Assembly (NCBI GenBank): GCA_020854775.1
Contig: JAHKLZ010000002.1
Coordinates: 1-64,000 of the forward strand
Origin: Candidatus Woesearchaeota archaeon
GTDB taxonomy: Archaea > Nanobdellota > Nanobdellia > Woesearchaeales > 21-14-0-10-32-9
DNA length: 64,000 bases
Direction: 5' to 3'
The notes below the pieces were generated by a model, which was not told the origin of the DNA, ran no database searches, and was given only the letters and a program-made list of their open reading frames with translations. Position 1 is the stretch's first letter. Every line of letters begins with the position of its first letter. Both the position numbers and the translations under genes were made by a program. This document shows, piece by piece, positions 14,631-56,916 of the stretch.

Positions 14631-14631
14631 A

Positions 14632-37823: not shown

Positions 37824-37991
37824 TTTCTCATTTTTATTCTTTTTTGGGTTTAGCGACAACACCAAGCGAGCCTTGATTTTACAAACACAAAAATACTAGA
37901 CTCGGTGAAACATTGGTCAATTATTCGGGGCGAGCGCGTCGCGTTTCTTATCATTTTTTTAATCATTTTTTTTTCTTTCTTTGTTTTGTTT
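37824..37991 (-). other. Atypical GC-rich spacer inside the operon
   Basis: The 168 bases between two giant genes contain the strand-unusual stretch GGGGCGAGCGCGTCGCG (plus strand, 37927-37943) and GCGAGC again near 37865, in a window otherwise poor in GC. The minus strand holds a short open frame from an ATG near 37966 (MIKKMIRNATRS onward, 38 codons, rare codons CGC and TCG) that is probably not coding. A structured RNA, a processing site or a foreign insert are alternatives; nothing recognised. Confidence 0.35.
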
Positions 37992-40900: not shown

Positions 40901-43900
40901 CGAATCTCCATGTTTCGCTTGTGTTTACGTTGTTTAAATCATCTTTACATGTTACGTTCCAGAAGTGTTCTCCATCTTCCAATCCGAAAAATGTGTAATT
41001 AAAAGTTTCGCCTGACATACCAGTTATGTTATCTGCGAATCTTTCTCCTAGAGGATCTGAAACATTTAACTCACACACTAAAGGTGTTGTTTCGTTGAAG
41101 TCCGTGGCGTTCCAGTAAAATGTTATGTCGTTTTGATTAAATGTCTGATCTACTTCTGGGCTTATCAATGTTATTATTGGTGGTGCTAAGTCTACGTGGA
41201 ATGTTTTTCCTGTTTCGTTTTTTCCTTCGTTTCCACTGGGATCTGCACACATAACGTCCCAGTTGTATGTTCCGTTTCCTAGGTTTGTTAGTTCAAAAGA
41301 ATTTTCTATTCCATTAGTTACACTAGTCTTTGTTTGGTTTGGTTCATCATTTATTAGTAATGTACAATTATTTATTGTTCCTGAATTATCGAACGCCGTG
41401 AAGAACAAATTAATAGTTGTTATGTTCGTTCTATGATTATTAATTGGGTTTCCTAGTATCACGATTGGCGGTTCTTGCACTTCGAAGTTCCTTGTTTCAC
41501 TCGTATTACTATTTGTTGCTAGGTCTCTACATTGCGCGCTCCAATTAAACCATCCGTCTGTGAATCCGCTTATGATTTCTTGGTGTGGCTCAGAATTATT
41601 TACTACTATGTTTGTTCTGTTTATTTCTTCATCGATGTATAAGTCACAAATCATTATTGGGCTTAGTGTGTCTGTGACTGTCCAATTAAACGTGATTGTG
41701 CTTGTGTTTAGTAATTCATCTATTATTGGGTTGTGCAATGTTATGCTTGGTGATGTTAGGTCTATGTAGAAACTGCTTTCGTTTGGCGCGTATGTATTCG
41801 CATCATTATCTGTACATGCGACTGTCCAGTTGTATTCTCCTTCTGGTAAATTGTTTAAGTCAAAAGTGTTATTTTGTTTATTGAATATTATGTTATTTGT
41901 TTGATTTGTTTCTCCGTTTAGTATTAGTTCACATCCTGTTATTTGAAAATCGTCTTCTGGGAAATATGTTAGTGTTACGTTGTTTGTGTTGAACCAAGTA
42001 TAATTTTCTGGGCTTATTAGTGTGACGTTTGGTGGTGCGATTACTTCGAAGAAGTATTCTGCTGATTCGTTGAATAAATCTGCTTTATCTACACATAGAA
42101 CGTTCCAAGAATAATTTCCGTCATTTAATAAATAATTTATTGTGTGTTCCGTGTTATTTTCTACTAATATGAAGTTCGCTATTGGATAAGTGTCTATTAT
42201 TGGTTCGTATTCTGTTAGGAACACGTCACAGTACATTTCTGGGCTGACTGCGTCTTTTGCTAGGAACGTGAATGATACGTTGTTTCCTGTTTCTATTGTG
42301 TTATTTAATGGGTTTATTAGTGTTACTTCGTATGGTGGTTCGTTATCCACGTAGTATATCCATGGTTCGTCTGCTTGTCCGGTTAAGCTATTAGTGTCTG
42401 TACATTGTACGTTCCATTCGTATGCGCCGTCAGGCATATTTGTTACTAAGAAGCTGTTTTCATCATTAGCAGTTATGCTTGTGTTTGTTGCTTCTGTTGC
42501 TCCATTTAGTATTAGTGAACACGTTGTGAATGTTCCGCTTCCTTCACTTGGTATGTACGTAAAAGTTGTGTCTCTATTCGTGCTTCCTGTGTTATTCGCA
42601 GGGTTTATCAGTGTGATTTTTGGTGGTAGTAGTACTTCGAAGTTTATTGTTTCGCTACTGTTTGTGTTTCCTGCTTTATCAGTACAAGTTATACTCCAGT
42701 TATACAACCCTGTTAGTAGTCCGCTTATTTCTATTCCTGTTTCTGTGTTGTTCTCAGTTAATATATTGGTTTGGTTTATTTCTTCGTTTATGTATACATC
42801 ACAAACCATTTCTTCTGAGTAATAATCTTGTGTTATCCAAGTAAAGTTATGTGTGGATGTGTTTACTGTTTGACTTTCGCTTGGATCTAAAGGTGTTATG
42901 CTAGGTGGTGTTCTGTCTACTATGAATGTTCTATTCGTGCTCGTATTAGTATTTGAGAATATTCCTGCATCAACGCAAGTTACGCTCCAATCATAATATC
43001 CTTCGCTTAGTCCTAGTAATTCGAATAATGTTTGTGTTCCTGAGGTTATGTTCGTTGTGTTTCTTTGATTGTATGCTTCGTTTAGGTATAAATCGCAGTA
43101 TTCAAATCCGTCATTATCCGCGGGGGTGTATGTCAAATTTATTATTGTGTCGTTGAGGTGTGTCGCGTTTATTGGCGTGTTTAGTGTTATTATTGGGCTT
43201 TGATTTATTGTTAAGTTTCTTGTTTCGCTCGTGTTTATATTTCCGCCTATGTCTGTGCACATCACGTTCCAATCATGATATCCGTCAGGGTATCCTGTTC
43301 CTGTTTCACTAACCATTGTTCCGCTCGTTGTGCTCGTAGTTATACTTGGTTCTTCGTTGAAGTTTATCGTACACATTAAAGGAGCCCAGTTATCATTCGC
43401 GGTGTATGAGAATAGTATGCTTGACTGCGTGAAGTAAGCGTCATTTAATGGGTTGTGTAGTGTTATTGTTGGTGGGGTGAAGTCTCCGAAGAAAATCCAT
43501 GTAGCGCTCGAACCAGGGTTGCTGTTCGAATCTAAACATTGTACGCTCCAATTGTATTCTGCTTCTTCTATTCCTATTTGGAACGTGTTTATTATGTTCG
43601 CAGTTATGCTAGTATTGGTTTGATTAAATAAGCCATTAACATATAATGAACATTCACTTATTCCGAATCCATCATAAGGTATGTATTCTAATGTCGCAGT
43701 GGTTGTGTTTACTCCTCCGTTATTCGCTGGGCTTATCAATGTTATTGTTGGTGGAACATCTGTTATTGTTATGTTATAAGTACTTGTTATATTTGTGTTT
43801 CCTGCTTCATCTGAACACTCCATTCTCCATGTGTAGTCTCCTATTGCGAAGCCTTCTATTGTTGTAGTAGTTAATGTATTATTTTGAGCTAGTACTATGT

Positions 43901-46900
43901 CTTCTAGCGCTCCGTCTATGTATATTTCACAAGTCATGTTTTCTGATTTTAAGTCTTGCACTATCCATTCAAAATCTATCCATGATTGTGTTATGTTTGC
44001 TTGTGGAATTTCTGGTTCGAAGATTGTTAAGTTGTAAGGTGCTTGTCTGTCTATGTCAAAATAATAAGTTGTTGAGTTTCCTATTAATCCTCCGTCGTCT
44101 TCGCACATAACACTCCAATTATATCTTATTTCTTCTAATCCTGATACTGAGAAAGTGTTTTCCACGTTCTTAGTTGGGTCGTTATCTGTTTGGTTTAATT
44201 CTTCGTTTATGTACAAATAACAAACATCTAAGTCTCCAAATGTTTGAGGAGTGTATCTGAAAATTACTGGTTCATCATTTATCCAAGAATTATTTCCAGG
44301 ATAATTAAGAGTTATTTCTGGTTCTGTTGTTACGCCTACTGTGACTTGTTCAGAGGATGTTATTGCTGTGGAATATTTAGATGCAGCTCTGCATCTTATG
44401 TTGGTTGTTCCAGGGTTGCTTCCTTCAAGATTAAAAGTTACGGTGGTTGTTGAATTAAAAAGGTCTCCTTCATCTTCAGGGTTATTCTGGGTGCTTCCTA
44501 GAATTATTATTCCGCTACTTCCTATGTTGTTCCATGTTCCACTTTCATTACTTTGTGCATAAACGTTTAGGTCTAGGCATGTTCCCATGTAGCAGTCTAC
44601 TTCGCATGTTAAATTAAAAGGATCTCCTTGTCCAACAGAAATAGATGTATTTGGTTGTATTAGTTCAGTGCTTAGTATTCCTATTTGTACGAAGTCTTGT
44701 GCATTAACAAAGCTTGATGTGTGATCTACTGCGTGAATAAATGTTCTTGCCGCGTTTGGATGAGTATTACCCATCCATATTTCGTAATATAATTTATCCG
44801 TGCTAAGAAGTCTAATATCTGTTGAAGGAGTGCATGTGCCAGTAGATGCGGCGCCACCACTTACGCCTGAGCCTGCTGTGTTTGAGCAAATCAAGGTGTT
44901 TGTTCCTGTTTCTGTTTGTCTGTATAAGTACCATCTGGCATTAAGATTGTTTCCTGCGTCTGTGTAGTATGTGCTGAATGAAACTGTTGAGCCACTTGGT
45001 ATTTCTGCTCCGTTTATTCCTAGGAAGGGACTTGTTGCTTCTACTATTTTTACTACTTGTCCTGAACCTACGCTTCCTGATACTGTGTTTTGTGTTCCAT
45101 CAGTTTGTTGTGCTAGGCCTAATTCGCAAAGTAATGTACCGCAGTCTGTTGTGCTTGTTTCGTACCATAATCCTTCATTTATTACTGGTGTGATATCTAT
45201 TGTTATTGTTCTTGTTGCACTCGTGTTTTGGTTTCCTGCTCCGTCATAACATTGCATGCTCCATTCGTATACTCCGTTTTCTAGGAAGTGGTTTATTGTT
45301 TGTGTTGTGTCTCTTGCTACGTCGTAGTACGTGCTTTGTGTTGTTCCGTTTATTATTAATGAGCAATTACTTATTGTTGAGTTATCTGTGACGTTATAAT
45401 TAAAAGATATGACGCTTGTATCTGTTATCGTTGCAGAATTAGCAGGGCTTATTAGTGTAATCATTGGGGGTGTTCTGTCTATGTGTATTGTTCTGTTTAG
45501 TACGGCTGTTGTGGTATCGTCGTTTTCGTCTATGCACATCATGTTCCAAGTATAGCTTCCTTCGTTTGTGAAAGTTGTGCTTAAGAAGTTGCTTGTGCCA
45601 TTGTTCACATTCGTGGTGGTGTTCTTCGCGCTCCATCCTCCTTCGTTTGTGTATAGTGAGCAGTTCTCGATTGTGGTTTCTGCGCTTGTTGGTATGTATT
45701 CGAATTCTTGGTTTGGGTCTGCTCTTGTGTAGTAATTGTTTTCTGGGTTTTCTAATATTACTGCGAAGTCTCCTGGTTCTGTGTAGTTCAGGTTCGCGTT
45801 TGCCCAGTTCAGGCTTATTCCTACTGTGCTTTCTCTTTGTGAGTTTCCTGGCGTGGTGAATGTTAGTGATGCGTCTAAATGTATGTAGTAAGTGCAGTAG
45901 TTTGGCCAGTTATCGCAGTTGTCTTGGTTGAATGATTGGCTTCCTGTTTCATCTATATTGTTATTTGTCCACGTAACCGTTGTGGATGATGTTGCGCTTG
46001 ATGAACCTACTTGTATTTCGTTTCCGTTTCCAAGATTATCGTCGTGGTCTAAGAACGCGTTTTGTGATCCCGCAGTTATTGTTCCTGCAGATGTCATTGT
46101 TATGTCTACGTTGTATTGTATTTCTTCCATGAAGAAAGAGGTTGCTCCTGTTGGTACTTGTACTGTGTATTCGCATGTTACGTCGCAACTTATTTGTGCG
46201 TTGTTACTTGTTTGTGTGTATGAGCAACTGCAATCTAGTGTATCGTTTAGTTCGCTGTATAGTGGGTCTTCTGGTGTTAGTGTGAATGTGTATATTTCTC
46301 CTAGTTCTAGGTTTCTCTTTTTTTGCCAGTTCCCCCAACAAGTCTGGGTTTCGAAGTCGTATTCTTTGCATTCGTATAGTGCTGTTCCTTGCGCGATTGC
46401 TGTTATTGTTGCTTCTTCGAAGTTCATAGTTGTTGGGTCTATCGCGTAGCTTCTTATTGTGGGTCTTCCGTTTATGTTTATTTCTTTGTTTATGTCTTCT
46501 AGTCCTAGTCTTGGGGGTGTTTCGTCTTTTAATCCTTTTATTTCTATTTTTTCTATTGCTTTTATTGGGTTTTCCATTAAAAGTCTTGGTCCTCTAGAAT
46601 TAAAGATGTGTTGTAGTGACGCAGGTCTTTTTATTCCCGCGTAATTTTCTAGGATGATTCCTCCTGGATTTATGTGGGTTGGTTGTTGTATTTGTTGTGT
46701 TGTTATTTGTTCTTGTTCTAGTATTTCTGATTTTGTTGTTTCTTCTATTGTTGTTTCTTCTTTGTTGGTTGTTATTATTGTTTCACTTATTATTTCTCTT
46801 GTTTTTTTATTTATTAGTTGTATTTTGTATGTGTCTGGTTCTGGTAAATTAAATTTTATTGGGAATTTTGGTATCCCTATGTAATCGTATTTTTTGGTGC

Positions 46901-47126
46901 TTGTTATTATTGTTAATGTTAATAATTCAGTTATGTTTTCATTTATTAGTTCAGGTTTCGTGTTTATTATTATTGTATCTTTTACTTCGTAGTATTCTTT
47001 ATCAGTTATTATTTTTAGATTTGAGAATTCATTTTCTGCAGTACTTATTAGTTGTATGTTTAATAAGAATATAATGGTAACTAGTATTATTGTACTAAGT
47101 ACTTCTAACCACCTTATTTTTCTCAT
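37992..47126 (-). CDS. Giant secreted Ig-repeat protein with subunit-type C-terminal cap (3044 aa)
   Basis: The largest gene of the window. A signal peptide (about 10-30) leads to an N-terminal beta module and a cysteine module (CKEYDFETQTCWGNW, near residue 260), both like those of the 2479-aa protein. I count about 19 Ig-like repeats of 90-100 residues (ITLISPAN to TFxVD, usually two cysteines each), one lectin-like insert (about 680-800), and two CARDB-like domains (about 2089-2195, DLYLNDTRISFNNTNPDLNE; and about 2745-2862). The last 180 residues are the shared cap (YADSINRTY, TINNIPIINSTN, FEIRIPATLREYSG, VVFYTELK). No membrane anchor. It would form a fibre of tens of nanometres if extended. 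NxS/T sites are very frequent. It is the first of the secreted genes in the operon, 49 bases behind the 490-aa coiled-coil gene. Confidence 0.82.
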   Translation of the reverse strand: MRKIRWLEVLSTIILVTIIFLLNIQLISTAENEFSNLKIITDKEYYEVKDTIIINTKPELINENITELLTLTIITSTKKYDYIGIPKFPIKFNLPEPDTYKIQLINKKTREIISETIITTNKEETTIEETTKSEILEQEQITTQQIQQPTHINPGGIILENYAGIKRPASLQHIFNSRGPRLLMENPIKAIEKIEIKGLKDETPPRLGLEDINKEININGRPTIRSYAIDPTTMNFEEATITAIAQGTALYECKEYDFETQTCWGNWQKKRNLELGEIYTFTLTPEDPLYSELNDTLDCSCSYTQTSNNAQISCDVTCEYTVQVPTGATSFFMEEIQYNVDITMTSAGTITAGSQNAFLDHDDNLGNGNEIQVGSSSATSSTTVTWTNNNIDETGSQSFNQDNCDNWPNYCTYYIHLDASLTFTTPGNSQRESTVGISLNWANANLNYTEPGDFAVILENPENNYYTRADPNQEFEYIPTSAETTIENCSLYTNEGGWSAKNTTTNVNNGTSNFLSTTFTNEGSYTWNMMCIDENDDTTTAVLNRTIHIDRTPPMITLISPANSATITDTSVISFNYNVTDNSTISNCSLIINGTTQSTYYDVARDTTQTINHFLENGVYEWSMQCYDGAGNQNTSATRTITIDITPVINEGLWYETSTTDCGTLLCELGLAQQTDGTQNTVSGSVGSGQVVKIVEATSPFLGINGAEIPSGSTVSFSTYYTDAGNNLNARWYLYRQTETGTNTLICSNTAGSGVSGGAASTGTCTPSTDIRLLSTDKLYYEIWMGNTHPNAARTFIHAVDHTSSFVNAQDFVQIGILSTELIQPNTSISVGQGDPFNLTCEVDCYMGTCLDLNVYAQSNESGTWNNIGSSGIIILGSTQNNPEDEGDLFNSTTTVTFNLEGSNPGTTNIRCRAASKYSTAITSSEQVTVGVTTEPEITLNYPGNNSWINDEPVIFRYTPQTFGDLDVCYLYINEELNQTDNDPTKNVENTFSVSGLEEIRYNWSVMCEDDGGLIGNSTTYYFDIDRQAPYNLTIFEPEIPQANITQSWIDFEWIVQDLKSENMTCEIYIDGALEDIVLAQNNTLTTTTIEGFAIGDYTWRMECSDEAGNTNITSTYNITITDVPPTITLISPANNGGVNTTTATLEYIPYDGFGISECSLYVNGLFNQTNTSITANIINTFQIGIEEAEYNWSVQCLDSNSNPGSSATWIFFGDFTPPTITLHNPLNDAYFTQSSILFSYTANDNWAPLMCTINFNEEPSITTSTTSGTMVSETGTGYPDGYHDWNVMCTDIGGNINTSETRNLTINQSPIITLNTPINATHLNDTIINLTYTPADNDGFEYCDLYLNEAYNQRNTTNITSGTQTLFELLGLSEGYYDWSVTCVDAGIFSNTNTSTNRTFIVDRTPPSITPLDPSESQTVNTSTHNFTWITQDYYSEEMVCDVYINEEINQTNILTENNTETGIEISGLLTGLYNWSITCTDKAGNTNSSETINFEVLLPPKITLINPANNTGSTNRDTTFTYIPSEGSGTFTTCSLILNGATEATNTSITANDENSFLVTNMPDGAYEWNVQCTDTNSLTGQADEPWIYYVDNEPPYEVTLINPLNNTIETGNNVSFTFLAKDAVSPEMYCDVFLTEYEPIIDTYPIANFILVENNTEHTINYLLNDGNYSWNVLCVDKADLFNESAEYFFEVIAPPNVTLISPENYTWFNTNNVTLTYFPEDDFQITGCELILNGETNQTNNIIFNKQNNTFDLNNLPEGEYNWTVACTDNDANTYAPNESSFYIDLTSPSITLHNPIIDELLNTSTITFNWTVTDTLSPIMICDLYIDEEINRTNIVVNNSEPHQEIISGFTDGWFNWSAQCRDLATNSNTSETRNFEVQEPPIVILGNPINNHRTNITTINLFFTAFDNSGTINNCTLLINDEPNQTKTSVTNGIENSFELTNLGNGTYNWDVMCADPSGNEGKNETGKTFHVDLAPPIITLISPEVDQTFNQNDITFYWNATDFNETTPLVCELNVSDPLGERFADNITGMSGETFNYTFFGLEDGEHFWNVTCKDDLNNVNTSETWRFVINQPDLYLNDTRISFNNTNPDLNEVINITANVSNLGGVDAINTLVEFWQGNPDEEGILIGSQTKNVTYEGHELYWVEWSIPEGYHTIYVIADPNNTIDELNETNNNATINISVLRNIIHKPLNGSVFNYSEVLFNFTLQDYTQGLINYTVYVDEALIGESGQIQDNESQEINIALSEGTRTITISAEDSIGRIKNTTVTIIVDETPPVPIILTSNNTWFNTTNPEINITATDGVTTNISYTLYVNETETETGHIINGTIQTIQLTGLEEGTYSLILEAEDESGNKANSTTTIIYLDVTPPSITLDAPENEENFTTRNVLLNYTIYDNMAQTSICYVNVSGTTHGPFNNNVGEQQSFLAEDLDEGEHYWNVMCTDQAGNTNTSETKNFNVFIPPEITLITPINNYWSNLSTNTFTYHVSDDTGIEQCSIYLNNVSNQTSFSVNNNNNNTFIVENMNGIYEWRIECLDNTTMNTQGISENRTLNVDLEAPKINMITENNNWFNTGPGIQFNLTDNLATTINYTIYVNGTINVEGTTSNNTLTTRNLEGLSNGIYEVRIESTDLAGNTNTSETIIIFYDTIAPSVTLNYPVNDTNTTSTSVNLSFTPSDNMAQYLMCFVTLNDDAIAENLNVTNGEEEIVELTSLMGGYYYWNVTCTDQATNTNTSETWMFFIPIPDLSVNASEIYFSNENPRENEEITINATIRNIGGSPAGEFIVQFWANEVNTTGNQIGENITILSLDENESINVSVNFTVPVGSTDIIVYVNPDKRITEDNYTNNIASRTISVEFWHYALGTTNDTLRVTDASAGLLFEWNVENSTGSNIYVTDYDSDISWLTLQALGRDTSNQERLQDFELLDTALGSTNYADSINRTYTENNAVIETESINIFGTTINNIPIINSTNNTNFKTGILWDYQTGTEYDGTQNILFITRINKGAQGYNSTNDFEIRIPATLREYSGPTDRVVFYTELK

Positions 47127-47175: not shown

Positions 47176-48648
47176 TTATTTGAATATACTTTGTACTATT
47201 TTTTGAGGTAATTTGTTTTTAATGAGAACTTCTTTTATTTCTTCGTCTGTTTTTCCTCTTTTTCTTGCTTCTCCAACTATTAGTAATATTTGTTTTTCTA
47301 GTTCTCTTTCTATTTCAGGATCCGTTGTGAATTCGCTTATTACGTCTTTCAAGTTTTCTTTTATTTCTTCTTTCGTTTTCTGTTCGTTTTCTGTTTCTTT
47401 TGGTTTTTCTTGTTCTTCTGATTTTTCTTTCTCTATGTTTTGTTCTGTTTCTTTTTTTGGTTGTTCTTTTGTTTCTTTTTGTTCTTCTTTATTTTCTTGT
47501 TCGTTTTCTGTTTCTTTTGGTTTTTCTTGTTTTTCTGATTTTTCTTTCTCTATGTTTTGTTCTGTTTCTTTTTTTGGTTGTTCTTTTGTTTCTTTTTGTT
47601 CTTCTTTATTTTCTTGTTCGTTTTCTGTTTCTTTTGGTTTTTCTTGTTCTTCTGATTTTTCTTCTTTATTTTCTTGTTTTTCTTGTTCTTTAGGTTCTGT
47701 TGATTCTGGTTCTGTTTGTTTTTCTTTTTTGTCTTCAGGTTTATAATCTGTTTTTTCAACTTCTAAATTAAGTTGTTTTATAGCAGAATCAAGTTTACTT
47801 TTTATCTCAGTTTTCAAAGTATTCATGTGTTTCTTAACATCTTCATGAGTACTCTTAGATCTTTCATCCATTAAGTTTATTACGCTGTTTGTGTGTTTCT
47901 CAAAGTCGTTAAACTTAGTTATGAATTTTAATAATTCTTTCTTATCAGTTTTATCTTCTAATTTTATTTTTATTTTATCAAAATCAGATTGCATCTTATC
48001 GAAGCTTCTTTTCAAATCTTTTACGGAATCGTTAAACTTGTCAAATTCCACGAATTTTTTTTCTACTTCTATGTATATTGTTTCTACTTTGTTACTGTGT
48101 CTTTCTATTATTCCTTCTATTTTTTTTATATCTATGAGTTCTGCTTTGATTTCTTCGTTTAATTTATTGACTTGTTCTATTCCTTTGTAAAAATCAATTT
48201 TTTTCCTCATTTCTTTTACTTCTTTCATCATGTCTCTCATTAATGATTCGCTACTTTCCACTCCTGCTTTTACGCTTTCTATTTTAGAATCTTGTTTTCT
48301 AACTTCTAACATTAATTGATCTGGTTTAACGCTTTCTACTAAGTCTATTGCTTTAGTGGCTGAGGCTTCTATGTTACCTACGGACTTGTTCGTGTCCATC
48401 ATCATTCCTCTTATTTCACCTATTTCTTCGTTCATCCTTGAGAATCTTTCATTAACGGCTTGTCTTTGCTCGTTTAATCCTTCTAATTGAGCTTTTATTT
48501 TTGTTACTTCTATTCCTAGTTTAGAATCTCCTAAATCATCATTTTTTTTATTCTTAGCTGCTTCTTTTTCTTCTAATTCTGCTTGTTGCGCTTCTATGTT
48601 TTTCTTAATCATTTCTTCGTCGCTTAGCTTTTTCTTAAACAATCCCAT
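47176..48648 (-). CDS. Cytoplasmic coiled-coil protein with Glu/Lys repeats and C-terminal helical hairpin
   Basis: A 490-aa protein without signal or membrane segment. Residues 1-15 are basic; about 30-310 form a long coiled coil (heptads throughout, for example LNEQRQAVNERFSRMNEEIG). Then comes a low-complexity Glu/Lys/Gln segment containing 39-residue tandem repeats. The last 46 residues (ILLIVGEARKRGKTDEEI, VLIKNKLPQKIVQSIFK) form a helical hairpin that recurs inside the neighbouring 468-aa protein. GAGGAA lies upstream of the ATG. The protein looks like a cytoplasmic scaffold for the membrane ATPase next to it. Similarity to methyl-accepting-protein coiled coils is only superficial. Confidence 0.7.
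   Translation of the reverse strand: MGLFKKKLSDEEMIKKNIEAQQAELEEKEAAKNKKNDDLGDSKLGIEVTKIKAQLEGLNEQRQAVNERFSRMNEEIGEIRGMMMDTNKSVGNIEASATKAIDLVESVKPDQLMLEVRKQDSKIESVKAGVESSESLMRDMMKEVKEMRKKIDFYKGIEQVNKLNEEIKAELIDIKKIEGIIERHSNKVETIYIEVEKKFVEFDKFNDSVKDLKRSFDKMQSDFDKIKIKLEDKTDKKELLKFITKFNDFEKHTNSVINLMDERSKSTHEDVKKHMNTLKTEIKSKLDSAIKQLNLEVEKTDYKPEDKKEKQTEPESTEPKEQEKQENKEEKSEEQEKPKETENEQENKEEQKETKEQPKKETEQNIEKEKSEKQEKPKETENEQENKEEQKETKEQPKKETEQNIEKEKSEEQEKPKETENEQKTKEEIKENLKDVISEFTTDPEIERELEKQILLIVGEARKRGKTDEEIKEVLIKNKLPQKIVQSIFK
47381..47670. repeat. 117-bp in-frame tandem repeats
   Basis: A 117-bp unit, encoding 39 residues rich in Glu, Lys and Gln, is present in near-identical copies at 47381-47497 and 47498-47614, with part of a third up to about 47670. 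Copies differ at only a few bases, pointing to recent duplication and probable length variation. Confidence 0.8.
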
Positions 48649-48654
48649 ATTTCT

Positions 48655-50061
48655 TCATTCCTCTTTTTTTTCTTCGTATAAGCCCGCGGCTTGCAAAACT
48701 TCTTTTTTCACATTAAGCTCTTCTCTTTCTACTGATTCTTTTATTTCTTTTTTGACTCCTTCTAATAATTTCATAACTTGTCTTCTGTCTTGTTCTTTAT
48801 TGCTTACTTCTAAGAATGACAATTTTGGCTTTATCAATCTAAGATTCATGTAAGGCATAAACATGTCTTTTCCTTGTTTTCTGTAATCTGATATTTCTGA
48901 GTATAATTCTTCATATATGTCTTTAAGATCTGAAACTGTTTCTTTTTGTTTTTCATAATTCAAGTAAGAGTTACTTTTCATATTACGAGTTTTTTCCAGC
49001 AAATTTTCTGCTCTTTCCGCTCTCAAATCTCTTTCTTTTTCTTCAGCTAATTTTTGTTCTTCTGTTTTTTCTTGTCTTTCATATTTTTCTGGTTCTTCTG
49101 TCTCTGTTGTTTTTTCTGTTTCTTTTTGTTCATCATTATTTTCTTTGTCTTCCTGTTCTGGTTCTTCTTCTTTGTTTTGTTCTGTTTCTTGTTTTTGTTC
49201 AGATTCCGTGTTTGGTTGTTCGTTTTGTTCTTCTAGCTCTGCTGGCTCTACTGCTTCTTTTTGTCCTGTTTCTTTTTCATCTTTTTTTGTTTCTTCTTTT
49301 GTTTCTTCTTTATTTTCTTGTTCTTCTGTTTTTGATTCTTCTTCGTTTTGAGAAGAAAATATTTTATTTAATATCTCGGAACTTATTCCTTGGCCTATGA
49401 GTATTTTTTTAATTTCTTCATTTGTTTTTCCTAACTTTTTCGCTTCTTTTATTATTGATAATAAATTTTCCGTAACGCTAATTGTTTGTTTTTTTTCATT
49501 TTCTTTAGTTTGTTCCTCTTCTTCTTCCTCTTCTGATTTTTTATTCTTTATTTTCTTAGCTTCCTTTTCTAATTCTTTCATCCAATTATCGGAAGGGGTT
49601 CTTCGTATCTTGTTTAATATTTTTTTAAAAATGGTTTTTTTATCTTTATTATCTTCTTCTTTGTTTTTCTTAATTTTAGGTTTTATTATTTTTTTTAGTA
49701 TGGCTTTGGCTTTTTCTTTTCTTGTTATTTTTTTGTTAATTTCTAATTCGTGTTTTATTCTTTCTAAATCTATTTTTTTGTGTTTTTCTTTGTGTTCACG
49801 AGTTTGCTCTTCTAATATTATTCTAAGTAGTTCATCAGGTTTTTTCACGTTCTTCATTTTTTCATATAATTCTTGTTTATGAAACACGTTCTTTATCCAA
49901 TTAGCATAATCGTTTTTTTCATTAGTTACATGATGATAAAAGTTTTCAAGATTCTCGTAATTAGTGTTTTTTTCTAGTTCTTTTTCTAATTCTTTGATGC
50001 TTCTAAGTTTTTCTCCGTTCCTAAGATAAAAATAATTATCAGGTTTTATTGTTTGCATCAT
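48655..50061 (-). CDS. Cytoplasmic protein with N-terminal H-x5-NDY-x2-WI domain
   Basis: A 468-aa soluble protein. The N-terminal domain (about 8-80: YFYLRNGEKLRSIKELEKEL, then HHVTNEKNDYANWIKNVF) is the domain found C-terminally in the membrane ATPase, the 933-aa and the 283-aa proteins. A basic helical linker follows. At about 200-236 the helical hairpin of the 490-aa protein recurs (KTNEEIKKILIGQGISSEIL). A long Glu-rich low-complexity part and a final coiled coil (about 370-455) complete it. The ATG overlaps the ATPase stop (ATGA), so it is made with the ATPase and very likely interacts with it. I infer an adaptor role. Confidence 0.72.
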   Translation of the reverse strand: MMQTIKPDNYFYLRNGEKLRSIKELEKELEKNTNYENLENFYHHVTNEKNDYANWIKNVFHKQELYEKMKNVKKPDELLRIILEEQTREHKEKHKKIDLERIKHELEINKKITRKEKAKAILKKIIKPKIKKNKEEDNKDKKTIFKKILNKIRRTPSDNWMKELEKEAKKIKNKKSEEEEEEEQTKENEKKQTISVTENLLSIIKEAKKLGKTNEEIKKILIGQGISSEILNKIFSSQNEEESKTEEQENKEETKEETKKDEKETGQKEAVEPAELEEQNEQPNTESEQKQETEQNKEEEPEQEDKENNDEQKETEKTTETEEPEKYERQEKTEEQKLAEEKERDLRAERAENLLEKTRNMKSNSYLNYEKQKETVSDLKDIYEELYSEISDYRKQGKDMFMPYMNLRLIKPKLSFLEVSNKEQDRRQVMKLLEGVKKEIKESVEREELNVKKEVLQAAGLYEEKKEE

Positions 50062-53000
50062 TTTTCACCATCTTCTTTTTTATCCTCTGATTCTTTTTCA
50101 TCTTCTTTTGTTTCTTCTGATTTTTCTTCTTTATTTTCTTGTTCTTCTTGTTTCTTTGGTTCTTCAGCAGGTTCTTTAGCGAAGTTTTTTACTGCGTCTT
50201 TTTGTTCTTCTTGTTTCTTTTTTTCAGGACTTTTTTCTAACGCAGGCAATTTTTCTCCTTTTGCTCTTTTATCAAGCAAGCTTATTATTTCTTTTCTGTC
50301 CTTAGTGTTATCCAGATGTTCTGCTAATTCAGCATCTCCTACTGCGTCTCTTATCCAATCAGCGAAATCATTTTTATTTTCATTCACGTGGTACTCATAA
50401 TCTGAGTCTTTCATCGCTTCTATTTCTGAGTATAAACTCGTTGGGGTAACAACTAACATGTCGTTGTGCAATTTCAATATCTTGTCAGGAGGAACATCTT
50501 TTTTGAATTTGTCTTGAGGAGTTTCTTTTTTGTCATCTTTTGTTTCTTCTTTCTTATTTTCTGCTTCGAATTTTTCTCTTTCTCCTTGTGCTTTCTTTAG
50601 TTCTTTATCTAGTTCTTCTTGAGACACCATTTTTATTTCCATTTTCTTAGGTGTTTTTCCTATTTTAGTCCAAACTTTTTTTAGTCTTGGTTCTAATCCT
50701 TCAATGTATATCTTTACCATGTTGAAGTTTCCAGCTTTTACTTTGTCTAATGCTAATTTTAGTTCTAATCTTAAATCGAACACGTCTTGTTTTTCTTCTT
50801 TTTCTAATTGGTCTAATTCGTAAGTCATTTGATCTATTTTCATGTTGTATTCGTTGTATTGTGCTATTTCTTCATCGCTTAATCTTGCTACTGAGTGCAT
50901 TATTGGTCTGAACGTTATGAAATAAGGTCTTCCTCTGTTATATGCTGAGTTTTGCACCATTCCTGTTCCTATGCTTGCTTTTACTAAGCTTTGCAGAACA
51001 TCTTCTCCGTACTTTGTTTTAATCCTGTCTAAGTCTCCTTCGTCTCTTGTTCTCATTTGTACTTCTGTGTTGATGTTTGCTTTGATTTGTCCTACGAAGT
51101 CTGCTAATACTTGCGAGATTAGCATTACGCCTATTCCCCACTTCCTGAACTCACGGCATGCTCTTTCTATTTGTAAGAATCCTTCTCCACTTCCTCCGAA
51201 CTTAGGTAGTAAACGGTGTACTTCGTCGTATACTAAGCAAAGTCTTAGTGGTTCTGATTCGTCGAAGTTCGCGTGGAATACTTCTCTTACGGTGTTCGCG
51301 ACGAAGATATCTATTTCTTTTGGGTCTAATTTATGTACTGCGAATACTTGTATTTCTCCTGGTTTCATGAATTTTCTTATATCTATTAATTCGCGCGCGT
51401 TATTGATTTGTCTTATGTTTCCTGTGAATGGTTTAGCGTCTTTTTCTGTCATTCCGAAGCTAGGATATAAGCCTAGTAGTCCTTTGTTTGTTAGTTTTCT
51501 TAGCATCCCTGTCCATTGCGCGGTTGGATCGAAGACTATTACTGCCACGTCTTTTAGTAGCATTTCTTCTATTATTACTTGTGCTGAGAAACTTTTACCT
51601 CCTCCTGTTGATCCTGCTACGATTGTGTGTGTTTTAAAATTTTCAAGGTTCATGTATGCTTTGTTTGATGTCTCTGCGATTTTTCCTGCGAATATACTTC
51701 TTGGTCCGTCTTTTGGTATCTCTGAATATTCAACTTTTAAGTGATATTTCTTTTTTCCTTCTATTCTTTTTTTGATTATTATTATTGCTATTATTAGTCC
51801 TATTAAGAATAATAAGAATAGTACTGCGTGCCATACTCTTATTCCCCAAAATAATATGTATTGATGTATTGGTAGACTTACGTGGAATACGTGGCTAGTG
51901 CTAGAACTTAGATCTAAGTAGTTAGCGGTTACTCTTATTACGTATTCTCCTTCTCTTATGTTATCAGGTAATTGTACGTTTCTTATTAATGACAGACTTG
52001 TTTTTAGGAACACGTTAGATGTGTGTGTCCATATTGTTTCTGTTCCGTCTAGGTTTTGTATTGTGAATATTAGACTAACAGGGTATTCTCTGTCGCTTAG
52101 CAAGTTTGTTAGGTCTGTTCTGAATGTGAATTTTGAGCCTGAGTATATTTTTCTGTCACTCATACTTATTCCTAGTAGTAGTGCTTGTATTGGTATTTTG
52201 TCTCTGTCTAATATTTCTACTATTATTGGTATTTCTACATCTATTCCGCCGGTTATGTTTAATGTTCCGTTGTATATTCCTGGTGTTTCATTTCCAAAAA
52301 ATGTTAGGGTTGCTCTTCCATCTCCTCTTGGGGGTATTAGTACACTGGTTCTATCTATACTTATTACTTTTTTTGCGTCTCCTACTACTTCAAAATTTAG
52401 TTGCATGTTATTTTGTCTGAAGCTTTGTATGAAGACTGTTTCTTGTGCGAATTCTCCTTCTCTTATTCTCTTCGTGATTCTATTGAAGGGTATCCAGTAA
52501 TCTTGTCCTTCTATTTCTACGGGTCTTTCTATTTGGAAGGGTACTTCTCCGGGTCCTTGGTCTGGTCCTTGGTCTGGTCCGAAGTCAGGTCCTATGTCTG
52601 GGTGCATATCTATGTATTCTACTGGTGGTAAGTCTATTTCTAGTATTATGTTGTGTTCTGTTACATTGTTTTCGAATACTGTTACGTTATTGAAATATAC
52701 TTTGTATCCTGTTCTTATTGCGAAGATATTTCTTGTTCCTGCGTCTGTTGATATTCTGTAGTAACCTGTCGCGTCTGAGACGTTAGAATAGCGTCCTATT
52801 GTTACTATTGTGTTTTCCATAGGATTTCCTCCTATGTCTGTGACTATTCCTTCTACTATTCCGAATGCGCCTGGTTCATCTTCGCCTGCAGGACACTCTA
52901 TGTATGGATCTAAGAATATGTAATATTTTGTTGTTGCATTGTTGGGAATGGGGAGCATCATTTGATAATTATAGAATCTTTGGTTGAATCCTCTGTGGAG

Positions 53001-53678
53001 CATTTCTTCTATTAATGCGACGACTACATAATTGTTGTTTTCATCTTTTAATAGGCCTGCTTTGAACATTCCTTCTTCGGTGCCTGTTCCTACGTATGTG
53101 TATACTGTCGGTATATTGTTGATTGGGTTTGCGCCTATTTGTATGTTCATTGTTTCTTTGAATGTGTTAATGGTAGAATCGTAATGTGTGTTATCTATTC
53201 CTATAAACGCGTCTATTTCTTGGCGTGTTGCTGCTTGAAGCGTCGGTATGGATATTTCTTGTTGTGGTACTAGGCTTGCGAATAGTAGCGTGGTGGTTCC
53301 GCTTCTCAGACATTCGAAGAATATGTTTCCTTCTATCATTCCTCCTGGGTCTACTTCGAATTCCCATGGTTGTGTTTGTCCTACTCCGAATGCAGCGCCA
53401 TATAATCCTGCCCAGCTTATTACTGGTTTTTTGAACAGCAGGTTTATTTGGTGTATGTATCCGCCTTGTCCTTCATGATAAGCTATGTATCCTGTGTAAA
53501 TACTCGTGGTTAATATTATTAGTATACTTATTATTGTTAGTATGATTAATGCGTAGTTTTTTTCTTTAGTTTTTTTGTTATTTCTGTTTTTTAGCGCTTC
53601 TTCTATAGTCATATTTTTTTTTCTGGTCATGTCTTTTATTTTTTGTTTCAATGTCCGTTTTTTTTCTTGTTCTTTCAT
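50058..53678 (-). CDS. Membrane-anchored HerA/FtsK-type ATPase with large ectodomain
   Basis: A 1206-aa protein with an unusual layout. Residues 1-40 are inside; membrane segment 1 is 42-64. The ectodomain has (a) a domain of about 85-262 of the same type as the small secreted subunits (HYDSTINTF, NPINNIPTVYTYVG, TTKYYIFLDPYIEC), (b) a carboxypeptidase-regulatory-like domain (272-350), (c) a GPD-rich linker (363-377) and (d) two Ig-like domains (about 400-600). Membrane segment 2 is 613-636. The cytoplasmic ATPase has Walker A GSTGGGKS (689-696), Walker B VYDEVH (816-821) and IERACREFRKWGIGVMLISQ. After a coiled coil, the shared cytoplasmic domain (1065-1140, NDFADWI) ends the fold, followed by a charged tail. 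It is the probable motor of the surface system. Confidence 0.85.
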   Translation of the reverse strand: MKEQEKKRTLKQKIKDMTRKKNMTIEEALKNRNNKKTKEKNYALIILTIISILIILTTSIYTGYIAYHEGQGGYIHQINLLFKKPVISWAGLYGAAFGVGQTQPWEFEVDPGGMIEGNIFFECLRSGTTTLLFASLVPQQEISIPTLQAATRQEIDAFIGIDNTHYDSTINTFKETMNIQIGANPINNIPTVYTYVGTGTEEGMFKAGLLKDENNNYVVVALIEEMLHRGFNQRFYNYQMMLPIPNNATTKYYIFLDPYIECPAGEDEPGAFGIVEGIVTDIGGNPMENTIVTIGRYSNVSDATGYYRISTDAGTRNIFAIRTGYKVYFNNVTVFENNVTEHNIILEIDLPPVEYIDMHPDIGPDFGPDQGPDQGPGEVPFQIERPVEIEGQDYWIPFNRITKRIREGEFAQETVFIQSFRQNNMQLNFEVVGDAKKVISIDRTSVLIPPRGDGRATLTFFGNETPGIYNGTLNITGGIDVEIPIIVEILDRDKIPIQALLLGISMSDRKIYSGSKFTFRTDLTNLLSDREYPVSLIFTIQNLDGTETIWTHTSNVFLKTSLSLIRNVQLPDNIREGEYVIRVTANYLDLSSSTSHVFHVSLPIHQYILFWGIRVWHAVLFLLFLIGLIIAIIIIKKRIEGKKKYHLKVEYSEIPKDGPRSIFAGKIAETSNKAYMNLENFKTHTIVAGSTGGGKSFSAQVIIEEMLLKDVAVIVFDPTAQWTGMLRKLTNKGLLGLYPSFGMTEKDAKPFTGNIRQINNARELIDIRKFMKPGEIQVFAVHKLDPKEIDIFVANTVREVFHANFDESEPLRLCLVYDEVHRLLPKFGGSGEGFLQIERACREFRKWGIGVMLISQVLADFVGQIKANINTEVQMRTRDEGDLDRIKTKYGEDVLQSLVKASIGTGMVQNSAYNRGRPYFITFRPIMHSVARLSDEEIAQYNEYNMKIDQMTYELDQLEKEEKQDVFDLRLELKLALDKVKAGNFNMVKIYIEGLEPRLKKVWTKIGKTPKKMEIKMVSQEELDKELKKAQGEREKFEAENKKEETKDDKKETPQDKFKKDVPPDKILKLHNDMLVVTPTSLYSEIEAMKDSDYEYHVNENKNDFADWIRDAVGDAELAEHLDNTKDRKEIISLLDKRAKGEKLPALEKSPEKKKQEEQKDAVKNFAKEPAEEPKKQEEQENKEEKSEETKEDEKESEDKKEDGEK

Positions 53679-56650
53679 TGTTTTGTTATTTCTTCGGTTA
53701 TTTGTTTGATTTGTTCTTTGAATTTGATTTGTGTGTTTTTTTCTGATTTGTTGTATGCGTCTGTTAACTTGTTGTATGTTTCAATTGCGTATTCTTTGTT
53801 TTTTTCTTTTAGTGCTGTTTGTGTTTGTGTTGTTAGTTCTTCTACGTATTTTTCGTTTAGAATATTCATCAATGTTATGGCGTCTTCATATACTTCTTTT
53901 TTAACGTTTCTTGGCGCTTTTTCATATATCATTTTTATTTCTTTGTATATGAGGCTTGCGCGTTCTATTTCTTTTGTTTCCAAATAATCTTTTGCATCAT
54001 TTATGAGGTTTTGTAATTGTTTTATTTTCTTGTCTTTTGAAAAATTATTTATGTATTCTATTATTTTTTCTTTTAAGTCAAAAACGTAGAAAACATATCC
54101 TAGTATTAGTAAAATTAGTATTATTACTAAGCTCGTTATTGGTTCTAGTTTCATGTCTGTGAATGTTACTAGTCCTGTTATTGCATTACTTCCTGATCCG
54201 CTTGTTCTGAAAGATCCTTCTGTTAGTATTATTGTGTGTGTATTTTTTATTTTTTCTAAGTCTTGGTGTTCTTTTAAGTAATAATTTATTGTTTCTGGTT
54301 TTTCAAATCTTATTAATTTATTTCTTGTTAGTACATCGTGTACTTGTTTCGTTACGAATTCAGTAGTTATTTCATCGCTTATTTTTTCTAGTAAGAAATG
54401 ATGCCTTGTTGTGTCTCCTGTGTATTCTATTGTTTTTTGAACTACTGTTATATTTTCTTTTTCTCCATTTATGTATGTTATAGTTGTTTGTGCGGTGAAT
54501 GTTCTAATTCTTATTAGGTTTTGTTGATTTTCTATTTCTCTTAAGTCTGGTCTTCCTTGTAGGTTTCTTTTTTCTGCGTATTCTTTAACAATTTTTTCTA
54601 GGTCTTCCCTGCTTGCATGAGTCATGTATTCTTCTGATTCTGTAACTTCTATTAGTAAAGGAGTTTTTCCTTCTAATTGTATTACTTGTTCTTTGTATTC
54701 TTGTATTTTTTCTTGTTTTTGTTGATCTGTTAAGTCTCTTCTTAGTGCTAAGCTGTTAAGATCTCGTAGTATTCTTTCATAATCTCTTAGAGATACTCTT
54801 AGTGTTTCTTTTATGTCTAATGCGTCCGCGGTTTTTCTTTCTTCTAAGCCTAAGTTATCTAAGTTTTCGTGTGCTTGTTCTATTTGTCTTCTTAGTTCTC
54901 CTGCGTCTATTGTGTCTTGAGTGTTAGTTGTTGAGAATTGCGTTGTTGATTTTGAGAATTCTCTTATTTCAGATTCTGCTGTTTCTTTTTGTGTTTCACA
55001 ACTTATTTTCCATTTGTATTCTCCTGTTTCTATTTTTTCTTTGAAAGTTATTGTTCCTGCTTTCACGTTTTCTTTTCTTGCTAGCTCTATGAACCATTGG
55101 CTGTTTTTGTCTGTTATGAATAATTTACATGTAGCTGTTTCTGCTAAGTTTATTTTTGCTTGGAATTCTATTTCTGTATTAGTTATTGTGGCTTTATTTG
55201 TAGGTTTTTCTAGTTCTATTTTGTTATTTGTTGTTGTCGTTGTTGTTTCTATTTTGTCCAGTTTGATTGTTAGACTAGTTGTTGCATCTAGTTTGATTGT
55301 TTCTGTTTTCACGTAATATCCTATCGCGTCCAGTCTTACTTTGTATGTGTCTTTTGGTAAGTTAAATTTTGTTTTTCCTGTACTATCTGTTATTTTATCT
55401 TCGTTAGTTTCAAGTATTGTTATTATTGTGTCTTTTAGTACTTGGTTTTGTTGATTTCTTACTTCTATTGTTAAATCATAATAAGGTCTCACGTCTAAAG
55501 TGATGGTTTCTTCTTTTGTGTTTCCTTCTTTATCTCTTGCTGTTAATTTTATGTCTCTATATCCTTCTGTTGCATATTTTATTTTTAGTTCGTTTCCTGT
55601 TTTTGTTGTTCCATCTGGTAAAGTCCAAGTGTATGTGTAAGGTGTTATTCCTCCTGTTGTTGTCGCTGTAAGAGTTGTTTCTTCGTCTAGTTTTATTTTT
55701 GTTTTTCCAGAAACGCTTAGTTTCATGCTGTCTATTACTTCATATGTTTTTGTTATGGCTATGTTCGCGGTTGTTATGTTTGCTCTTATTTCGTACTTAC
55801 CCGGATTTTTTGTTTCTGTATTTGTTAATAATGTTGATGGTGCTTGTATTTTTTGTGTGTGTGTGCATTCTTCCCATTGTAAAGTTCCTTGTGTTGCATT
55901 TCTGCATATTTTTATGTCTACTTCTATATTGTTTGTTGTTTTTAATAAATAATAAGAAGTTTCTCCTAAGTTGTATTTTTCTTTGTCTGTTTCTATTATC
56001 AGGGCTTCTTCAACTACTATGTGTATGGTTTTTTCTTTGTGTGTATAATTTTCTGTTTCGTTATATCTTGCTTTTATTTCGTAGGTTCCTGTTTTGTCTG
56101 GTCTTCCTGTTATTGTTATGGTTCTTGTTCCTTCTGTTTCTTCAAGTAGTTCTGTTGTGTTCATCAAAGTATTATTTATTAATAGTTCTAAGTGTCCTTG
56201 TTCTGTTTCTATTGTCGCGGTTATATTTACTATGTCTAATTGATTTATGGTCGCGTTTTCAGTTTGTGAATTAAATTTAAGTGTTATTATTGGTTCGGCT
56301 TTTTTTATTTTGTAGTTATTTATTATTGTTGTATTAGTTGTGTTTGTTTCGTTTATTATTGTCCATTCATAATTGTATGTTCCTGCGCTTAAGTCGTCTA
56401 TGTTTATCAAGTAGTATCCTTCTTCGTAATTCACATCACTGTTTTCTAGAAGTATTATTTCATTTTCGAAGAGTTTGAATATTACTTTATCTTGTAATTC
56501 TTCTATTAATATGAATTCGTAGTTTTGATTAGGTGTGTATGTTGCGTTTTCTGGAGTTGTTTGTGTTGTTTGTGCTGATGCTAGAATTATTAATAATAGT
56601 GTTATCATCATGAAGGTTATTGCTTTGTTGATTTTTGGTGTTATTTTCAT
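53675..56650 (-). CDS. Type I membrane protein with Ig/PKD-like ectodomain and cytoplasmic helical repeats
   Basis: A 991-aa protein with signal peptide (about 1-26). The ectodomain contains Ig-like modules, a PKD-like domain (about 320-387; GGITPYTYTWTLPDGT is typical), a carboxypeptidase-regulatory-like domain (388-462), another Ig-like module (about 475-580) and a helical part (about 600-720). The membrane segment is about 833-853. The cytoplasmic tail of about 130 residues is helical, with TPR-like spacing (RASLIYKEIKMIYEKAP, YAIETYNKLTDAYNKSE). The start overlaps the upstream RHH stop and the end overlaps the ATPase start (both ATGA), so its amount is tied to the ATPase. Likely a membrane partner of the ATPase. 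Confidence 0.75.
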   Translation of the reverse strand: MKITPKINKAITFMMITLLLIILASAQTTQTTPENATYTPNQNYEFILIEELQDKVIFKLFENEIILLENSDVNYEEGYYLINIDDLSAGTYNYEWTIINETNTTNTTIINNYKIKKAEPIITLKFNSQTENATINQLDIVNITATIETEQGHLELLINNTLMNTTELLEETEGTRTITITGRPDKTGTYEIKARYNETENYTHKEKTIHIVVEEALIIETDKEKYNLGETSYYLLKTTNNIEVDIKICRNATQGTLQWEECTHTQKIQAPSTLLTNTETKNPGKYEIRANITTANIAITKTYEVIDSMKLSVSGKTKIKLDEETTLTATTTGGITPYTYTWTLPDGTTKTGNELKIKYATEGYRDIKLTARDKEGNTKEETITLDVRPYYDLTIEVRNQQNQVLKDTIITILETNEDKITDSTGKTKFNLPKDTYKVRLDAIGYYVKTETIKLDATTSLTIKLDKIETTTTTTNNKIELEKPTNKATITNTEIEFQAKINLAETATCKLFITDKNSQWFIELARKENVKAGTITFKEKIETGEYKWKISCETQKETAESEIREFSKSTTQFSTTNTQDTIDAGELRRQIEQAHENLDNLGLEERKTADALDIKETLRVSLRDYERILRDLNSLALRRDLTDQQKQEKIQEYKEQVIQLEGKTPLLIEVTESEEYMTHASREDLEKIVKEYAEKRNLQGRPDLREIENQQNLIRIRTFTAQTTITYINGEKENITVVQKTIEYTGDTTRHHFLLEKISDEITTEFVTKQVHDVLTRNKLIRFEKPETINYYLKEHQDLEKIKNTHTIILTEGSFRTSGSGSNAITGLVTFTDMKLEPITSLVIILILLILGYVFYVFDLKEKIIEYINNFSKDKKIKQLQNLINDAKDYLETKEIERASLIYKEIKMIYEKAPRNVKKEVYEDAITLMNILNEKYVEELTTQTQTALKEKNKEYAIETYNKLTDAYNKSEKNTQIKFKEQIKQITEEITKQ

Positions 56651-56916
56651 TTTTTAAGCTCCATAATTATTTTTTCTAGTTCTTGTAAGAGTTTGTCTTT
56701 GTCTTTGCTGTCTTTGTTTTGTGCGATGTTTTCTTCTAGTTGTTCTCTCATTTTTTGTACTTCGTGTTTGTAGGGTTGTGTGTGTTCTTCGCATTTTTGT
56801 CGTATTATTGTTCTGATTTGTTCTGATAAGTCTAAGTAGTGATTTTCTTGTGCTAAGATTTTTAGTTCTTGTACTAATGTTGCGGGGAGTCTTATGCTTA
56901 GCACTGTGTCTTTCAT
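56647..56916 (-). CDS. Ribbon-helix-helix regulator with coiled-coil tail
   Basis: An 89-aa protein. The RHH domain is at the N-terminus (TVLSIRLPATLVQELKILAQ, then DLSEQIRTIIRQKC); residues 50-89 form a charged helix. It overlaps the 53-aa RHH gene upstream and the 991-aa gene downstream by ATGA junctions. Two different RHH proteins opening one operon suggests a heterotypic or two-level repressor acting on the repeat-rich leader upstream. Confidence 0.8.
   Translation of the reverse strand: MKDTVLSIRLPATLVQELKILAQENHYLDLSEQIRTIIRQKCEEHTQPYKHEVQKMREQLEENIAQNKDSKDKDKLLQELEKIIMELKK

Follow-up and report, generated by a model that had tools for sequence, protein, structure and literature searches.

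The stretch of DNA analysed here, referred to as the window, comprises 64,000 nt from a Candidatus Woesearchaeota archaeon (contig JAHKLZ010000002.1, positions 1 to 64,000) and carries on its reverse strand an intact open reading frame of 1206 amino acids with an ATG start, which encodes a HerA-type ATPase with two transmembrane (TM) helices. The gene lies in an operon with the order ribbon-helix-helix protein, 991-aa membrane protein (U991), ATPase, TAIL-domain protein (TC468), coiled-coil protein (CC490) and giant surface protein (G3044), which is conserved in relatives, and it overlaps by 4 bp with each of its neighbours, the U991 gene upstream and the TC468 gene downstream (Table 1; numbers such as G031 denote the genomes compared, G000 being the source genome). 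Full-length orthologues with 44-76% identity occur in many independent, related genomes of the Woesearchaeota order, which is the outcome of a family search for the same architecture proposed in an initial annotation of the window.

The two membrane segments named in that annotation were recovered by hydropathy analysis, in agreement with the helices of an AlphaFold2 model. TM1 is an N-in signal anchor preceded by a K/R-rich N-terminus of 41 residues, and the large ectodomain between TM1 and TM2 measures 556 residues by hydropathy rather than the 540 first given. The domains initially assigned to it were all found again: a hidden Markov model (HMM) of stand-alone subunit-type (SUB) proteins matches its N-terminal part, and the AlphaFold2 model contains a beta-rich domain at residues ~88-258, a carboxypeptidase-regulatory fold resembling human carboxypeptidase N (over 77 residues, with a root-mean-square deviation of 1.4) and two immunoglobulin (Ig)-like sandwiches at residues ~391-601, the latter separated from the carboxypeptidase-regulatory-like domain by a Gly/Pro/Asp-rich linker. 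The comparison of the whole-ATPase model with the PDB was taken up by the Ig-like domains and barely probes the folds of SUB and motor. A charged linker joins the motor, which ends at ~930, to the C-terminal TAIL domain. Over 12 orthologues, 122 N-glycosylation sequons fall on 6725 ectodomain residues as compared to 17 on 7963 residues C-terminal of TM2 (1.8 vs 0.2 per 100 residues), and 4-8 lysines or arginines are present in the 20 residues after TM2 as compared to 0-4 in the 20 residues before it. Both measures agree with a chain that is predicted to be N-in/C-in, with the ectodomain outside and the motor inside as originally proposed.

Pfam matches the motor with DUF87/HerA at residues 665-732 (E 1.3e-10). 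A profile of 30 core sequences (A3) retrieved eight HerA-type sequences as its best PDB matches (E 1e-11 to 1e-6), with other motors scoring more weakly (DotL 0.0035, FtsK 0.0038). K695, D818, R842 and R845 are found in all 30 sequences and E819 in at least 90% of them, and the motor's conserved residues align to Walker A, E356, R378 and R381 of Sulfolobus HerA, the last of which we take to be the arginine finger. Walker A is located where it had been placed initially; Walker B is present as well, but its LVYDE, with the acidic pair 818-819, occupies residues 815-819 and not 816-821. With conserved arginine/sensor motifs in addition to both Walker motifs, the motor can be assigned from its sequence to the HerA clade of the HerA/FtsK superfamily. 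HerA-clade motors are translocases.

The protein shares with the HerA (DUF87) translocases/helicases the motor domain, Walker A and B and the RExRK...SQ motifs following Walker B, and differs from them in its membrane anchoring and added ectodomain. Only 53 residues lie between the end of TM2 (635) and Walker A (689), and the N-terminal part of HerA is therefore missing; the PDB HerA alignment begins at residue 119 of Sulfolobus HerA, the part before which is filled by the HAS barrel. As there is no room for this barrel and no NurA was seen among the Pfam matches of the 18 window proteins scanned, which do not cover every open reading frame of the window, the label of a canonical HerA-NurA system was dropped. 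The label VirB4 was dropped too, since the VirB4 N-terminal domain PF03135 matches neither the window ATPase nor three minimal relatives located beside fused giants, and FtsK_gamma, the FtsK C-terminal gamma domain, has no match in the ATPase at E <=0.1. The NCBIfam matches of the motor, CedD (E 2.2e-6) and TraD (E 2.1e-6), both stay far under the cut-offs. Compared with G004, G031 and G063, the ectodomain is 75, 50 and 41% identical and the motor 92, 78 and 69%, a faster divergence of the ectodomain as would be expected of a contact surface. The genome also encodes a separate HerA-like protein of 661 aa without predicted TM helix (G000:C8).

To place the ATPase within its family we collected relatives from 99 genomes; the assignment to classes and the number of motor-bearing genomes were read from the match listings, and the counts apply to the matches listed. 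The motor is matched in at least 29 of the 99 relatives, and of 193 genomes sampled across the phylum, 39 were counted as having a long core match (below 1e-100). Seventeen named loci were found, three from Ca. Woesearchaeota and one each from Altiarchaeales and Aenigmatarchaeota, the other 12 being distant bacterial matches; the named archaeal relatives are uncultured isolates, mostly labelled as metagenome-assembled. All forms of the family have the same core, made up of the two Ig-like domains, a TM helix and the HerA motor, whereas the ectodomain can be swapped. Minimal members (683-815 aa) consist of TM, two Ig-like domains, TM and motor, subunit-bearing members such as the window ATPase span ~1180-1620 aa, and at 8 loci of the core tree the core is fused into a single giant chain (2,954, 3,421 (open), 3,995, 4,197, 8,055, 8,149, 8,189 (open) and 15,809 aa). 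What the fused giants have in common with the window ATPase begins at its two Ig-like domains (residues ~391-603). Since the Ig-Ig-TM part alone matches many other open frames, the ATPase may be seen as an ordinary archaeal surface protein with a membrane anchor that acquired a HerA motor at its cytoplasmic end.

A minimal ATPase adjoins or lies near a giant-fused one in G058, G030 and G032, as a second ATPase gene after the fused giant. In the tree the two ATPases of G058 group as sisters, as do those of G030 (100/100). Such pairing would fit a mixed ring; a recent duplication explains it too. The subunit-type ATPases do not form one clade, so that the split form, in which giant and motor are separate genes, was probably gained or lost more than once, and a single origin of the subunit form is not supported by the tree. 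The tree has a very long outgroup branch and 15 open forks and gives no order of fused and split forms; G093, with a partial core, was excluded from it. Two fused giants may be described individually. In G032 (C41:15376-62805, L079-L081) the 15,809-aa open frame ends in TM and HerA motor; downstream of it come a minimal ATPase of 699 aa and a protein of 696 aa that is weakly similar to CC490. The 8,055-aa giant of G063 (C4:13992-38159, L076/L077) has NosD/beta-helix and NEW3-like domains outside and DUF835 after the motor.

The SUB domain connects the ATPase to other surface proteins of the window. Five stand-alone SUB genes lie on the same contig within 50 kb of the operon. BLAST-type searches without training paired the ATPase ectodomain with one of the small secreted proteins at E 7.5e-5 and 1.5e-5. 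Of 15 ATPases, 13 have an ectodomain that is matched by an HMM of 16 stand-alone SUB proteins, with E from 5e-14 to 4.5e-6, the HMM missing that of G031 and the 5'-cut one of G044; the SUB domain of the G031 ATPase is matched by an iterated HMM only, which is circular. In profile-profile comparison the SUB HMM matches the C-termini of the two giants G3044 and G2479 with a probability of 96.8, where the giant alignment has two rows and the E-values are those of single pairs. A SUB-like C-terminus is present in eight of nine complete G3044-type giants at subunit-type loci (by eye, with a profile for two), among them complete giants of G031, G063 (two), G072 and G081 (two), in which the pattern was recognized by eye. 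The C-termini of G1915, the ninth of these giants, and of the fused giants lack it, again by eye. Hydropathy indicates Sec-like N-terminal hydrophobic segments in both the small SUB proteins and the giants. Beyond this segment, no membrane anchor is predicted for G3044 or G2479, whereas the fused giants are anchored by TM2.

We analyzed the occurrence of SUB with respect to the form of the ATPase, keeping all 99 genomes. Among the matches listed, small SUB proteins are present in each of the 19 subunit-type genomes, while SUB of any kind is matched in none of the 5 fused-only genomes, in 3 of 5 genomes with an unclassified motor and in 19 of 70 without motor. G024, G026 and G082 were counted as split despite longer ectodomains, and G037, G049, G051, G079 and G098, which have the motor, belong to neither the split nor the fused-only class owing to cut contigs, both forms or the minimal form. 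Any SUB match at all is listed for 22 of the 80 non-subunit-type genomes, the five fused-only ones included, and the association with the subunit type has a Fisher p of 2.3e-9 when shared descent is ignored. Five of the 19 SUB-positive genomes without motor carry a broken or partial ATPase ectodomain or a SUB-bearing large frame instead. In other orders of the class, seven of eight core-bearing genomes are without SUB, and the eighth has it in the frame of the ATPase only.

Of the 19 subunit-type loci whose upstream sequence is present, 16 have U991 directly before the ATPase. Of the 19 with sequence downstream, 17 have CC490 no more than a few genes after it, and in 16 loci a protein that has a TAIL domain or resembles TC468 lies between ATPase and CC490. 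A G3044-type giant comes immediately after CC490 in seven loci, some of them cut by contig ends, and further down in G063 and G072. CC490 homologues are also found downstream of fused giants in seven of eight loci with downstream sequence (the exception being G030), downstream of ATPases in Aenigmatarchaeota and after the minimal ATPase of Altiarchaeales. As CC490 accompanies split, fused and minimal forms, it ties split and fused ATPases into one system.

Table 1. Features of the window and the adjoining contig sequence (positions in the window unless a contig is given)
Feature	Position	Strand	Basis
Membrane HerA-type ATPase, 1206 aa	50058..53678	-	open reading frame, Pfam, orthologues, hydropathy
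ATPase TM1, residues 42-60	53499..53555	-	hydropathy; AlphaFold2 helix ~39-65
ATPase SUB domain, residues ~61-258	52905..53498	-	stand-alone-subunit HMM E 2.4e-13; untrained BLAST-type matches
ATPase carboxypeptidase-regulatory-like domain, residues 275-346	52641..52856	-	Pfam PF13620 E 2.3e-5 (below gathering); VIA Z 13.4
ATPase membrane-proximal Ig-like domains (two), residues ~391-603	51870..52508	-	AlphaFold2 and VIA; core profile A3
ATPase TM2, residues 617-635	51774..51830	-	hydropathy; AlphaFold2 helix 615-637
ATPase HerA-clade motor, residues ~655-930	50889..51716	-	Pfam DUF87; profile vs PDB HerA entries E 1e-11 to 1e-6
Walker A GSTGGGKS, residues 689-696	51591..51614	-	K695 invariant in 30/30
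Walker B CLVYDE, residues 814-819	51222..51239	-	D818 invariant, E819 >=90%
ATPase helical TAIL domain, residues 1045-1141, distantly DUF5752-like	50256..50546	-	HMM; PF19027 below gathering
RHH89, ribbon-helix-helix-like, first operon gene	56647..56916	-	weak PF17723 E 0.04; position conserved
U991: signal peptide, PKD, TM near 841, cytoplasmic tail	53675..56650	-	Pfam, hydropathy, gene order
TC468: N-terminal TAIL domain and acidic coiled segment	48655..50061	-	HMM, gene order
CC490, coiled-coil protein	47176..48648	-	homologues follow ATPases of both the subunit and the fused type
G3044 giant surface protein, Ig-rich, no second TM, C-terminal ~190 aa SUB-like	37992..47126	-	Pfam; hhalign probability 96.8
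G1915 large surface protein, C-terminus without SUB-like domain	32118..37865	-	Pfam, by eye
G2479 giant surface protein, C-terminal ~190 aa SUB-like	21049..28488	-	Pfam, profile, by eye
283-aa cytoplasmic protein, C-terminal TAIL domain	20100..20951	-	hydropathy, HMM
W950, secreted/membrane protein, TMs near 31 and 698, TAIL domain ends cytoplasmic tail	14581..17433	+	hydropathy, HMM
Stand-alone SUB protein, 249 aa	18336..19085	-	sequence searches
Stand-alone SUB protein, 254 aa	19139..19903	-	sequence searches, HMM
Stand-alone SUB protein, 244 aa	61630..62364	-	sequence searches
Stand-alone SUB protein, 232 aa	62393..63091	-	sequence searches
Fifth stand-alone SUB protein, past the window	G000:C2:64155-64892		

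Several further observations concern the neighbourhood. TC468 and CC490 share, by eye, a similar helical motif of ~40 residues (EAKKLGKTNEEIKKIL...ILNKIF type), which may serve for binding in the manner of a UBA motif. The TAIL domain (HVxxxKNDFxxWI, weakly DUF5752) recurs in W950, the 283-aa protein, TC468 and the ATPase as well as on G000:C18 and G000:C19, as if it were a common docking module of cytoplasmic proteins and membrane-protein tails. Divergently oriented beside the operon, the gene at 57331-58047 encodes an N-terminal hydrophobic segment, a TM helix and a C-terminal MarR-type winged helix, possibly a membrane-bound transcription factor. Beside the SUB genes lies another family of genes for small secreted proteins (LYALNVTSLIDYG type; 17434-18327, 60730-61623, 28499-30256), also in G031, G098, G024 and G011, and its genes are often accompanied by a CARDB-like membrane protein and a helix-turn-helix regulator.

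The closest known parallel is provided by the SPEARE giants of Nanohaloarchaeota, in which a giant ectodomain is linked via a TM helix to an ATPase of the same superfamily (PMC6642349, PMC10266531); the premise of the initial annotation that ATPases of this clade do not normally bear large ectodomains is thus outdated. SPEARE proteins combine an Ig-rich large ectodomain, a TM helix, a cytosolic ATPase of the HerA/VirB4/TraG superfamily and a coiled coil. The window ATPase has the same order of extracellular part, TM and cytosolic ATPase toward the C-terminus, the giant-fused relatives (2,954-15,809 aa) have the published layout, and fused and minimal relatives show a weak ResIII (type III restriction-enzyme) match. 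Hamm et al. report relatives of the intracellular SPEARE part in Woesearchaeota, Aenigmarchaeota, Altiarchaeales and Micrarchaeota (PMC6642349), the first three of which are also the groups of our named archaeal loci. Unlike SPEARE, the locus described here encodes the giant and the coiled coil (CC490) in separate genes, the ATPase has an additional N-terminal TM helix and an ectodomain with SUB and carboxypeptidase-regulatory-like domains, small SUB proteins are present, and no second ATPase gene follows directly downstream. Kinship to the nanohaloarchaeal proteins is suggested by architecture and by the occurrence of relatives described in PMC6642349. Given that there is no single giant chain and that the likeness is one of architecture rather than direct sequence comparison, we would file the window protein as a HerA-clade motor working like SPEARE and not as a SPEARE protein proper. 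CedB/CedD and VirB4 are, like the window protein, membrane-associated HerA/VirB4-type ATPases (PMC9905601, PMC11868833), although PF03135 is absent from the window protein and a large ectodomain is not among the features described for them in the portions of these papers available.

Taken together, we give an even chance to the possibility that the ATPase is the membrane-anchored ring motor of a SPEARE-type cell-contact apparatus in split form ('split SPEARE'). Giant and motor are fused in relatives and are thus predicted to work together where they are separate; as G3044 and G2479 lack the second membrane anchor, the split form would need a docking surface, which the shared SUB domain offers. 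Six ATPase copies would assemble via their motor domains and display six SUB domains as an external crown, on which the secreted SUB proteins and the SUB-ended giants would dock non-covalently, replacing the covalent giant-ATPase link of SPEARE. The giants would bind a host or neighbouring cell, ATP hydrolysis would move either DNA inward or protein outward as a polymer that passes through the ring or alongside it, and the TAIL-domain and coiled-coil proteins would assist inside the cell. As to the substrate, effector secretion, as proposed for SPEARE by the authors of PMC10266531, and Ced-like DNA import are equally good guesses.

A number of observations weigh against this interpretation. 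SUB has no PDB match by sequence or structure, and the AlphaFold2 model of the stand-alone protein is poor (predicted local distance difference test, pLDDT, 65), which leaves its polymerisation a guess. A known pilin or fibre fold was considered for SUB, and no match to one was obtained; with regard to donor-strand filaments (TasA/AbpA/thread), no resembling PDB sequence was found up to E 10 and the poor model gave no fold match. SUB does not belong exclusively to the ATPase system, because among the matches listed it turns up in 14 of the 65 genomes in which neither a motor nor a broken ATPase was detected. G1915 does not end in a SUB-like domain, the subunit-type ATPases are scattered over the tree (4 changes), the ATPase model has a mean pLDDT of 69 and falls below 50 in the P-loop region, no channel protein was identified, and host, fibre and complex are putative.

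Among the alternatives, an engine that builds, exports or retracts a surface fibre made of SUB, without polymer transfer between cells, appears unlikely. The SUB domain within the ATPase ectodomain provides a direct physical link, and SUB and ATPase co-occur; however, the N-terminal hydrophobic segments of SUB proteins and giants would provide for their own Sec-like passage, fused relatives retain the motor without any SUB, so that SUB assembly is not the only job of the motor family, and the motor's homologues are nucleic-acid or type IV secretion system translocases rather than pilus-extension ATPases. This also bears on the initial suggestion that ATP hydrolysis is coupled to export, retraction or sensing of surface fibres. 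The link of the ATPase to fibres or giants is supported by shared domains, operon context, fusion in relatives and co-occurrence, while the three activities themselves are putative; export by the motor would be the least needed, because subunits and giants carry Sec-like segments. We regard as similarly unlikely that the motor pulls host or environmental DNA inward like CedB/CedD of Sulfolobales, with the giants merely holding the partner cell. The CedD and TraD matches, HerA as the nearest structural clade and the described role of CedD, a TM protein with a HerA/VirB4-like ATPase required in DNA import (PMC11868833), speak for such an importer, but no CedA/VirB6-like channel or nuclease was present among the 18 window proteins scanned, and the importer is a special case of the split-SPEARE explanation in which nothing favours DNA over protein. 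Much less probable is a sensor in which an ATP-driven conformational change signals ectodomain contact inward via TAIL and coiled-coil partners without translocation: TAIL domains recur in four or more proteins encoded near the operon, in W950 as part of its cytoplasmic tail, yet the catalytic residues of the motor are conserved throughout, and motors of the HerA clade are translocases. Finally, a chimeric assembly or a set of unrelated neighbouring frames, to which contig breaks in relatives and a frame split in G050 might point, is next to impossible, and mis-assembly or fusion of two genes, named at the outset as refuting the annotation, is ruled out because full-length open frames exist in independent genomes, the gene overlaps both neighbours and gene order is kept. 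The breaks themselves (G015:C45, G051:C14, G073:C100, G039:C124, G011:C18, G044:C11, where contigs start or stop within the ATPase gene) look as if near-identical intragenomic copies had disrupted assembly, and in G050 (C36:51830-55804, L059) the orthologous gene is split into frames of 587 and 729 aa.

The connection of a giant ectodomain via a TM helix to an ATPase is already established by SPEARE (PMC6642349, PMC10266531). As far as we searched, the separation into parts that would dock, SUB in three kinds of protein, the second TM helix, the conserved operon and the modular family of 683-15,809 aa are new to the split SPEARE form; no description of the split arrangement was met in the titles and abstracts listed by searches of open-licence full texts, and it may be published outside that set. 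How episymbiotic DPANN archaea grip their host and take material from it is an open question, for which the SPEARE giants are a main candidate, though very hard to express due to their size. In the split form the machine consists of parts of ordinary size (a motor of 1206 aa with a defined ectodomain, ~240-aa subunits, a coiled-coil partner and separable giants), so that docking, oligomerisation and substrate become directly testable. The modularity of the family, with its minimal, subunit-bearing and giant-fused forms, suggests that the Ig-Ig-TM-motor unit and its coiled-coil partner act as a conserved engine, to which different ectodomains can be fitted. More tentatively, and on balance doubtfully, the six SUB copies might start a surface fibre or cap it, and might at the same time be the socket into which interchangeable giant adhesins are plugged. 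If so, host-binding giants could be swapped without change to the motor, ATP hydrolysis would be mechanically coupled to the fibre, and the covalent SPEARE giants would represent the hard-wired form of the same machine.

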